From positions 310,001-374,000 of the forward strand of contig JAUZSP010000003.1 in NCBI GenBank assembly GCA_030949385.1: DNA of 64,000 nucleotides. The letters run 5' to 3'. The stretch is from Gammaproteobacteria bacterium. Its GTDB lineage: Bacteria; Pseudomonadota; Gammaproteobacteria; JAUZRS01. The notes beneath the pieces are model-generated. The model saw nothing but the letters and a program-made list of their open reading frames with translations, was not told where the DNA came from and did no database searches. Every line of letters begins with the position of its first letter. Within the stretch, counting starts at the first letter, position 1. Positions 52,088 through 54,369 of the stretch are shown piece by piece. The translations under genes and the position numbers were made by a program.

Positions 52088-53969
52088 ATGACTAAAAAAC
52101 TCGCTCTTTTGATCGGCAATGATAAATACAACGAGGGCAGCTTAGGTAATTTAGTTGCTCCGCAAGCGGATGTGGCGGCGTTGGCCGCTGTGTTGAAGGG
52201 TAAGGCGTACGGTTTTGAGGTCGAGACCCTGCACAACCCTGAACTGGCCGAGGCGCGTCAGAAGGTGTTTGATCTGTTTGATGAGCGTGACAAAGACGAC
52301 ACGGTGTTGCTCTATTTTTCGGGGCACGGTGTTTTGGGCAGCGGTCGTACTCGGCCACTTTATCTGGCACTGCAACAGACCGATTATGACCGTCCGGGTC
52401 GAGACTCTCTAAGTGCTTCGGACATCAAGCGCGAGATGGAAAACAGCTTCGCCCTACGACAGATCATTTTGCTCGATTGCTGCCACAGTGGGGCGTTTAG
52501 TGCGGCGGACAAAGGCGGTGAGGCACTGACGGAGGAGAGTTTCAGTGTCAGGGGTGTCGGCAAGGCGTTGTTGGCCTCTTCCACTCGTTTGCAAGCGTCG
52601 CAAGATGGCAGCAAAACCGGTTTGCAGCACTCCCTTTTTACTCATCATCTGGTTTCGGGTTTGAACGGTGAGGCGGCCAATGAGACTGGGGTGGTGAAAT
52701 TGGAAAAACTGTATCGTTATGTGTACGAGAAGGTGATACAAGATCGCAGCGATATGATGCCGGTTATGTGGGTGGGTTTGGAGGGGAAGTTTAAGTTGGG
52801 GCGTTTTCAGCCAAAGGGAGTGTTGCCGGAGGCGGTGTTGGCAGGGTTGAAATCTGAGAGTCTCGATACTCGTCTGGCGACGGTCTATCGCTTGAAATCG
52901 TGTTTGTTGGGCAAGAATCCAGAGCAGGCGAAGTCGGCGTATTTTTTACTTTTGAAGCTGAAAAAGAGTGAGCCGCTGCATGAGGTTCATTTGGCGATTG
53001 ATGATGTTTTACGCACTGCTAACCCGAAAGCAGCTTCATTGGTGAAACCAGCTATAAAAACTCCAGTTGGCGCTCCATTTTCAGAAGTAGTTAAACCATC
53101 GCTTTCCATTACCAAGATGTTGTCAAAGACGGTTGTAGTGGCGGTGCTTGGTGTGCTGATTGGGGTGTTTTTTATTGGTCAATTTTTAAGGTTTAAGGCT
53201 GGAGACGTGTTTCAAGATGATTTAAAGGATGGCAGCAAAGCGCCCAAAATGGTGGTGATCCCCGCTGGATCGTTTCAGATGGGCTGTGTCAGTAGTAAAC
53301 GTTGTCGTAATAATGAAAAACCAGTGCATCAAGTCACCATTGCCAACAACGTTGCTCTGGGTCAAACAGAAGTAACCTTTGCGGATTACGATACATTTGC
53401 CAAAGCAACACAACGAGAATTGCCCAGTGATCGTGGTTGGGGGCGAGGCAATCGTCCGGTGATGAACGTCAGTTGGAACGATGCTCAGGCTTATGCCCAG
53501 TGGTTAAGTGAGCAGACAGGGGAGGCGTATCGTCTGCCGAGTGAAGCGGAGTGGGAGTACGCGGCCAGAGCGGGCAGCACAACGCCTTTCAATACGGGCG
53601 TTTGTCTCTCTACCGATGAAGCAAATTATAACGGTGATTACCTTTTGGACGGTTGTAAAAAGAGCGGTGTTCGTCGCGGGAAGACCGTTGTGGTTGGTGA
53701 GTTTAAAGCCAATGGGTTTGGTTTGTATGACCTGCACGGTAATGTTTGGGAGTGGACAGAAGACTGCTGGCATAAAACGTACAGTCAAGCTCCCAGTAAC
53801 GGTGCAGCGTGGTTAGACGACGCGGGCGCAGAATGCGACCGGCGTGTGGTTCGCGGTGGCTCCTGGATCAGCAATGCGGAGAACGTGCGCTCGGCCAACC
53901 GTCTCGGGATACTACACCGTTGAAACGGTCAACATTATCGGCTTTCGTCTTGCCAGGGCGCTTTTTTGA
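52088..53969 (+). CDS. Prokaryotic metacaspase with C-terminal FGE-sulfatase (C-type-lectin-like) domain, late frameshift
   Basis: N-terminal caspase-like C14 peptidase (residues ~1-240) with the catalytic pair His 80 (YFSGHG) and Cys 132 (DCCHSG), a helical linker, one TM (~347-367, TVVVAVLGVLIGVFFIGQFL), then a formylglycine-generating-enzyme/sulfatase-modifying domain (~385-627): VVIPAGSFQMG, RPVMNVSWNDAQAY, YRLPSEAEWEYAARAG, GLYDLHGNVWEWTEDC, RVVRGGSW. As sequenced the frame ends at 53923 in an odd tail (LGILHR). A net change of one base at about 53899-53909 would let it continue YYTVETVNIIGFRLARALF to a TGA at 53967-53969, the expected FGE end. Topology puts protease and FGE domains on opposite sides of the membrane. 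Role unknown; cell-death, defence or variable-recognition roles are possible. Confidence 0.85.
53851..53969 (+). other. Candidate variable region of a diversity-generating retroelement target
   Basis: The C-terminal FGE segment from GGSW to the end is rich in NNC/NNT codons at exposed positions (ATC AGC AAT ... TAC TAC ACC GTT ... GTC AAC ATT ATC) before an invariant IGFRLAR end. That is what adenine-directed mutagenesis of AAC/AAT template codons would leave. FGE/C-type-lectin-fold C-termini are the known targets of such retroelements. No template repeat and no reverse transcriptase are in this window, so this is inference. Confidence 0.35.
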
Positions 53970-54369
53970 TCCTTTGACCTTTGTGCTTTGTCCCTTTGCG
54001 CTCTTGTCTTTTGTTTTGAATGCATTGAGGTTTCATCTTTAGGCAGAGGGCGGTGGGGGCAGACGCTTTTAGGTTCGGCGCGCAGCGCCGTCGGTCAAAA
54101 ATGGGGAGGGGATTTGCTGTTTGCCTCCTCTGAATAACTGATGTTACGTACTGATTCAGAATTACGGCTTGTGCAGTAGGGGCGCACCTATGTGTGCGCC
54201 CTTTTAAGCTTATTTGATTGGATGGTCTTGTTTGCTGCGTAACGTCAGTGAATAACCGAGTAGGGACGAACCTTGTGTTCGCTCTTTGTTTGAAATACAG
54301 CGTTGGTTTGAAAGGGGAGTGAGATCATTGGCGCAATGCCCTGCGGTTATTGCGCCCTACGGTGGAGGC
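53970..54369. other. 400-bp gene-free stretch with hairpins and REP-like palindromes
   Basis: No convincing gene. It has repeated CTTTGAC/CTTTG-like bases just after the metacaspase end, a GC-rich hairpin CGGCGC-GCA-GCGCCG (54076-54090), a REP-like palindrome GGGCGCAC/GTGCGCCC (54180-54201), a weaker GTAGGGACGAAC-type copy near 54260, and GGCGCAAT/ATTGCGCC (54330-54356). The last lies just beyond the end of the convergent PAP2 gene. Confidence 0.6.

Follow-up and report, generated by a model that had tools for sequence, protein, structure and literature searches.

The gene for a caspase-type protein at positions 52088–53923 (+) of the window, the 64,000-nucleotide stretch of DNA analyzed here, raises the question of whether its 3' end is the target site of a diversity-generating retroelement (DGR) and, if so, whether that retroelement is still at work. 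A DGR reverse-transcribes a template RNA, introducing random changes at adenines, and puts the resulting cDNA in the place of a variable repeat; therefore, the ligand-binding face of the target protein changes and the remainder is kept. A sequence-only reading of this locus had proposed that a caspase-like protease is joined through a membrane segment to an FGE/C-type-lectin-like domain, the tail of which is a remote target of an active retroelement.

The protein parts of this proposal were borne out. The gene is a single open reading frame of 611 aa as encoded, and its N-terminal caspase domain (aa 3–229; 52094–52774, +) is matched by Pfam Peptidase_C14 (PF00656, 80.6 bits) and by the NCBIfam model NF047832 "caspase, EACC1-associated type" (150.3 bits against a cut-off of 140). 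Residue 80 is the His of SGHG and residue 132 is the Cys of DCCHSG, as had been claimed. Hydropathy predicts a strongly hydrophobic membrane helix at about aa 344–367 (53117–53188, +), with a Kyte-Doolittle mean of 2.69 over 19 residues, between the caspase and the FGE-sulfatase/C-type-lectin-like domain (aa 385–605; 53240–53902, +), which is matched by PF03781 with 183.9 bits and is cut short at its C-terminus. The PDB sequence relatives of this domain include PvdO, human FGE and the Treponema DGR variable protein 2y3c.

The tail itself is not the continuous stretch between GGSW and IGFRLAR of one protein that had been described, and it is divided between two frames. The encoded protein ends in GGSWISNAENVRSANRLGILHR, with its stop at 53923 inside the claimed tail, and the sequence IGFRLARALF is offset from that frame by one base and has its own stop at 53967–53969. 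Frame comparison showed that the two frames unite only if the GGG at 53906–53908 (+) is read as GG. Because of this one-base shift within the repeat, the window protein stops short of the end of the FGE fold, and the Pfam profile is covered from 2 to 236 of its 255 positions, versus 2–255 in a DGR-bearing relative. No obvious break of this kind was seen in a non-systematic look at the other long open reading frames tiling the window. The extra base may be a real insertion, or it may be an error, made either in sequencing or in building a consensus from mixed variants; an insertion during cDNA copying is also possible, and it would be indistinguishable from a homopolymer error.

Three adjoining segments on the plus strand make up the candidate target site. 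The first (53855–53936) resembles a variable repeat; it runs from GGSW to the last codon ahead of IGFR, and the coding frame is broken inside it. The second is the conserved end IGFRLARALF with its stop in the other frame (53937–53969); it stands where DGR targets have their homing segment, and the sister species, in which a contig starts at 53938, has the identical sequence. The third is a C/T-rich non-coding tract (53970–54003) also present in DGR targets. When the tail (query 53840–53970) was compared with the DNA of 369 genomes of the class, the best match outside the genus was a DGR variable region in genome G322 (75%, E 4e-17), and the template of the same DGR was also among the best extra-genus matches (73%, E 2.5e-13). 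The G322 locus is made up of the template, two targets and genes for a reverse transcriptase and for Avd, the latter scoring above its NCBIfam cut-off. The likeness continues beyond the coding sequence: the 37 non-coding bases after the tail (53967–54003) are 81% and 84% identical to the two G322 targets, and the same stretch in non-DGR FGE relatives reaches 46–59%. The FGE body is 57–64% identical to the G322 targets, below the value for the post-tail DNA, and the post-tail match score was reached in 0 of 5000 shuffles. A variable repeat at the 3' end of an FGE/C-type-lectin-fold gene, the arrangement of a DGR target, is thus present, with its frame broken in the assembly. As a separate observation, the complete G322 DGR with its two FGE targets (L138, 5949–13100) adjoins a MoxR-like AAA ATPase gene.

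Two further lines of argument were tried and rejected as proof. Compared with the foreign G322 template, the window tail differs at 15 of 33 adenines and at 15 of 80 other bases (p 0.005); a non-DGR control leans likewise (18 of 33 adenines and 28 of 80 other bases, p 0.06), and this adenine bias is no more than suggestive and was rejected as proof of a DGR. The NNC/NNT codons of the tail are too weak alone to serve as such proof.

A GC-rich hairpin, which had been placed about 110 bp after the gene, is present at 54075–54091 (+) and begins about 105 bp past the second stop. It has six perfect pairs and a GCA loop of the GNA type, and it is kept in the sister species. In hairpin scans, it is one of two plus-strand GNA-triloop hairpins with six or more pairs in the window and the only GNA-loop hairpin on either strand of the 64 kb that passes the GC-rich filter. 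Homing of the Bordetella phage DGR requires a hairpin after the variable repeat, and the hairpins there have four-base loops at a distance of 4–34 bp (PMC3240598). The window hairpin differs from these in its loop, scored as three bases rather than four, and in its distance of 105 bp rather than 4–34 bp (PMC3240598). Across FGE genes, a GC-rich GNA hairpin lies within 150 bp of 12 of 112 tails, versus 0.23 expected from base shuffles.

In distant relatives, the FGE tail varies at matching positions, and a DGR-type reverse transcriptase lies near four relatives. The mismatches between template and variable repeat fall at adenines in 17 of 18 and 16 of 16 cases for the two pairs of a Nevskia locus (L025), in 19 of 21 and 15 of 16 cases for those of L047, and in 16 of 16 cases for the pair of L059; these pairs were chosen by a script demanding an adenine bias of at least 80% and show the presence of DGRs, not their frequency. 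The Nevskia DGR targets include caspase-FGE proteins; therefore, the pairing of caspase and FGE is a known kind of DGR target. The Nevskia sp. targets (L025 and L009) resemble the window protein in that they hold the caspase and the FGE in one protein. Their strongest hydrophobic stretch, however, is near the N-terminus and resembles a secretion signal, whereas that of the window protein lies between the domains, and the window, unlike the Nevskia sp. locus L025, has no retroelement. One half of the earlier claim stands on this evidence: the tail is very probably a DGR-type target site, past or present, as argued for by the match of the tail and post-tail DNA to a complete DGR locus, the GNA hairpin, the distant caspase-FGE relatives with adenine-specific pairs and the end of a sister-species contig at the edge of the tail.

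The other half, that the tail is the remote target of an active retroelement, was not supported by a search of the assembled genome (G000; 2.87 Mb, 10 contigs, 98% complete). No reverse transcriptase or template repeat was found within the 64-kb window, as had been noted. The whole assembly carries one reverse transcriptase, which immediately follows cas1, precedes a CRISPR array and bears a QGxxxSP motif, and it was ruled out as a DGR enzyme on these grounds. It scored 132 bits with a DGR profile, versus 379–691 bits for the DGR enzymes of four other genomes; the profile was built from four DGR reverse transcriptases, and two of the four comparison genomes supplied rows to it. When the assembly was searched for a template copy by BLAST, with 24-mers allowing three mismatches and with an adenine-tolerant pattern, in which each non-adenine in the first part of the tail may be adenine in the template, only the tail itself was matched. 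Neither a DGR reverse transcriptase nor an adenine-biased template copy was thus found, which is one half of the outcome that the earlier reading had named as refuting it, and since both were looked for in the assembly without success, the locus is not classed as a DGR system. The Avd model PF22296 had no match in the genome and matched no control genome either. Plasmids and phages searched with the tail DNA, viral contigs searched with the tail pattern and the window searched with Rfam gave no match.

We therefore read the tail as an orphaned site, an idle or relict target whose machinery is gone, because the assembly is without reverse transcriptase and template and the repeat contains a one-base shift. 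We give this reading a probability of roughly 0.6 and consider it better than that of a live remote target. The machinery, we infer, was lost rather than left unassembled.

A live remote target, for which the reverse transcriptase, avd and the template would lie in unassembled DNA (a plasmid, or contigs broken by the template and variable repeats) and the frame break would be a sequencing or consensus error or one variant of a population, is unlikely, although several observations speak for it. The contig of the sister species (G001) starts at the base matching 53938, precisely where the tail ends on its 3' side, as a hypervariable tail would cause. The chance of a contig end within 10 bp of this edge is about 0.002, a value computed after the fact, and the break could be a matter of chance. 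Moreover, the break in the frame falls within a run of three G, a plausible place for an indel error, the C-terminal end IGFRLARALF is identical in G001, where the post-tail DNA and hairpin are also kept, and targets served in trans are known (PMC10907252). Against this, a DGR reverse transcriptase is missing from both genomes of the genus, which are each about 98% complete (G001 yielded no reverse transcriptase at all), no template was found, and a second break in G001, where another contig ends at codon 32 of the same gene so that its middle is missing, is unexplained by a variable tail. Apart from this question, the window is without a toxin-antitoxin-like pair at the spacer where G001 seems to have one: contig C75 (L084) carries, by eye, an apparent antitoxin and PIN-type toxin pair between the FGE tail and a PAP2-like gene.

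Less probable still is the reading that the gene is a plain caspase-FGE fusion with a tail that has no history as a DGR target; FGE tails would diverge fast and the likeness would arise from a conserved fold. The absence of DGR machinery from the genome would agree with it, as would the wide spread of FGE relatives, which occur at E <= 1e-40 in 117 of the 369 genomes of the class. In a tree of the FGE body, from which the tail was excluded, the window falls in a supported set of seven rows, none of them DGR-linked, which includes the genome's own kinase-FGE paralog; the body thus groups with non-DGR-linked FGE genes, and the tree was rejected as support for kinship with DGR targets. The tail of the kinase-FGE paralog is also unchanged in the sister species. 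However, the likeness to a DGR locus does not end at the stop codon: it continues in the non-coding DNA, where it exceeds that of the body, and a GC-rich GNA hairpin, of the kind seen after 12 of 112 FGE tails, also follows the window tail. The body tree set against the tail matches therefore indicates that tail and body tell different stories: either the tail and its flank derive from a DGR target, or close DGR-linked relatives are missing from the sample. The paralog is a kinase-FGE fusion of 1112 aa (L158:6141-9476, G000 contig C1) whose tail protein sequence is identical in both species of the genus, and it offers a useful non-diversifying control in the same genome. It is highly improbable that a DGR in unassembled DNA acts in trans to rewrite the ligand-binding end of a transmembrane caspase receptor encoded by the window gene, with frame-breaking rewrites as reversible off-states and a population of silent and armed variants.

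Several published systems come close to this one. Among cyanobacterial DGR variable proteins, orthocaspase-CLec proteins and remote targets are known (Vallota-Eastman 2020, PMC7517822). The window protein resembles the orthocaspase-CLec proteins in its N-terminal caspase-type peptidase and C-terminal C-type-lectin variable domain, and differs from them in that its genome assembly is without DGR reverse transcriptase or template, its tail frame is broken and a membrane helix lies between its domains (PMC7517822). The pair of domains is also that of the metacaspase-FGE-sulfatase proteins, which in some cyanobacteria have membrane helices between the domains (Asplund-Samuelsson 2012, PMC3501461); the cyanobacterial variant described there has two helices, whereas the window protein has one (PMC3501461). 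Incomplete DGR loci and remote targets have also been reported for conflict systems that are linked to DGRs and use FGE/CLec sensors (Thiohalocapsa PB-PSB1, PMC10907252; VMAP ternary systems, PMC7159879). These systems have in common with the window protein an FGE-type sensor that is either fused to a peptidase effector or encoded close to one; the reported examples are part of larger gene systems, however, and no NTPase or adapter partner was seen beside the window gene. Another relative is the two-gene EACC1 caspase conflict system (PMC7159879), which the window gene resembles in its EACC1-associated caspase over the cut-off and in its membrane association. Unlike in that system, no EACC1 gene lies directly upstream of the window caspase (PMC7159879); the upstream neighbor is divergent and has a weak CCDC90-like match below the cut-off.

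By analogy with published conflict systems that combine such sensors with peptidases (PMC10907252, PMC7159879), which form the basis for the topology and activation proposed here, the intact protein was most likely a membrane-anchored sensor-protease made of an EACC1-type caspase, a membrane helix and an FGE/C-type-lectin-like ligand-binding domain. A ligand would bind the FGE domain, the signal would pass across the membrane helix and the caspase would then be activated, perhaps as a conflict or cell-death switch. The 3' end would have served as a DGR-type target site composed of variable repeat, homing segment, C/T-rich tract and GNA hairpin. If this is right, a transmembrane caspase-FGE receptor joins the known DGR-target conflict proteins, and the locus exemplifies a target site still in place after the apparent loss of its retroelement. 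The post-tail DNA, with its C/T-rich tract and GNA hairpin, is then suggested as a marker for orphan DGR targets where no reverse transcriptase or template is available.

The locus that carries the only reverse transcriptase of the genome has features of its own. It lies at L002:327-3070 (G000 contig C6, about 166905–169648) and contains cas1 and a separate reverse transcriptase gene overlapping the end of cas1, and the PADLOC matches there include Cas1_IIIb and RT of acquisition. The CRISPR array has about 11 spacers and the repeat GTACGAAACCTAGCCCCGTTAGAAGGGGATTAAGAC. Just past the array, at L002:3116-3272, the 18-base unit GGGAATGACGAGCTTTGT is repeated in tandem in 8.7 copies.
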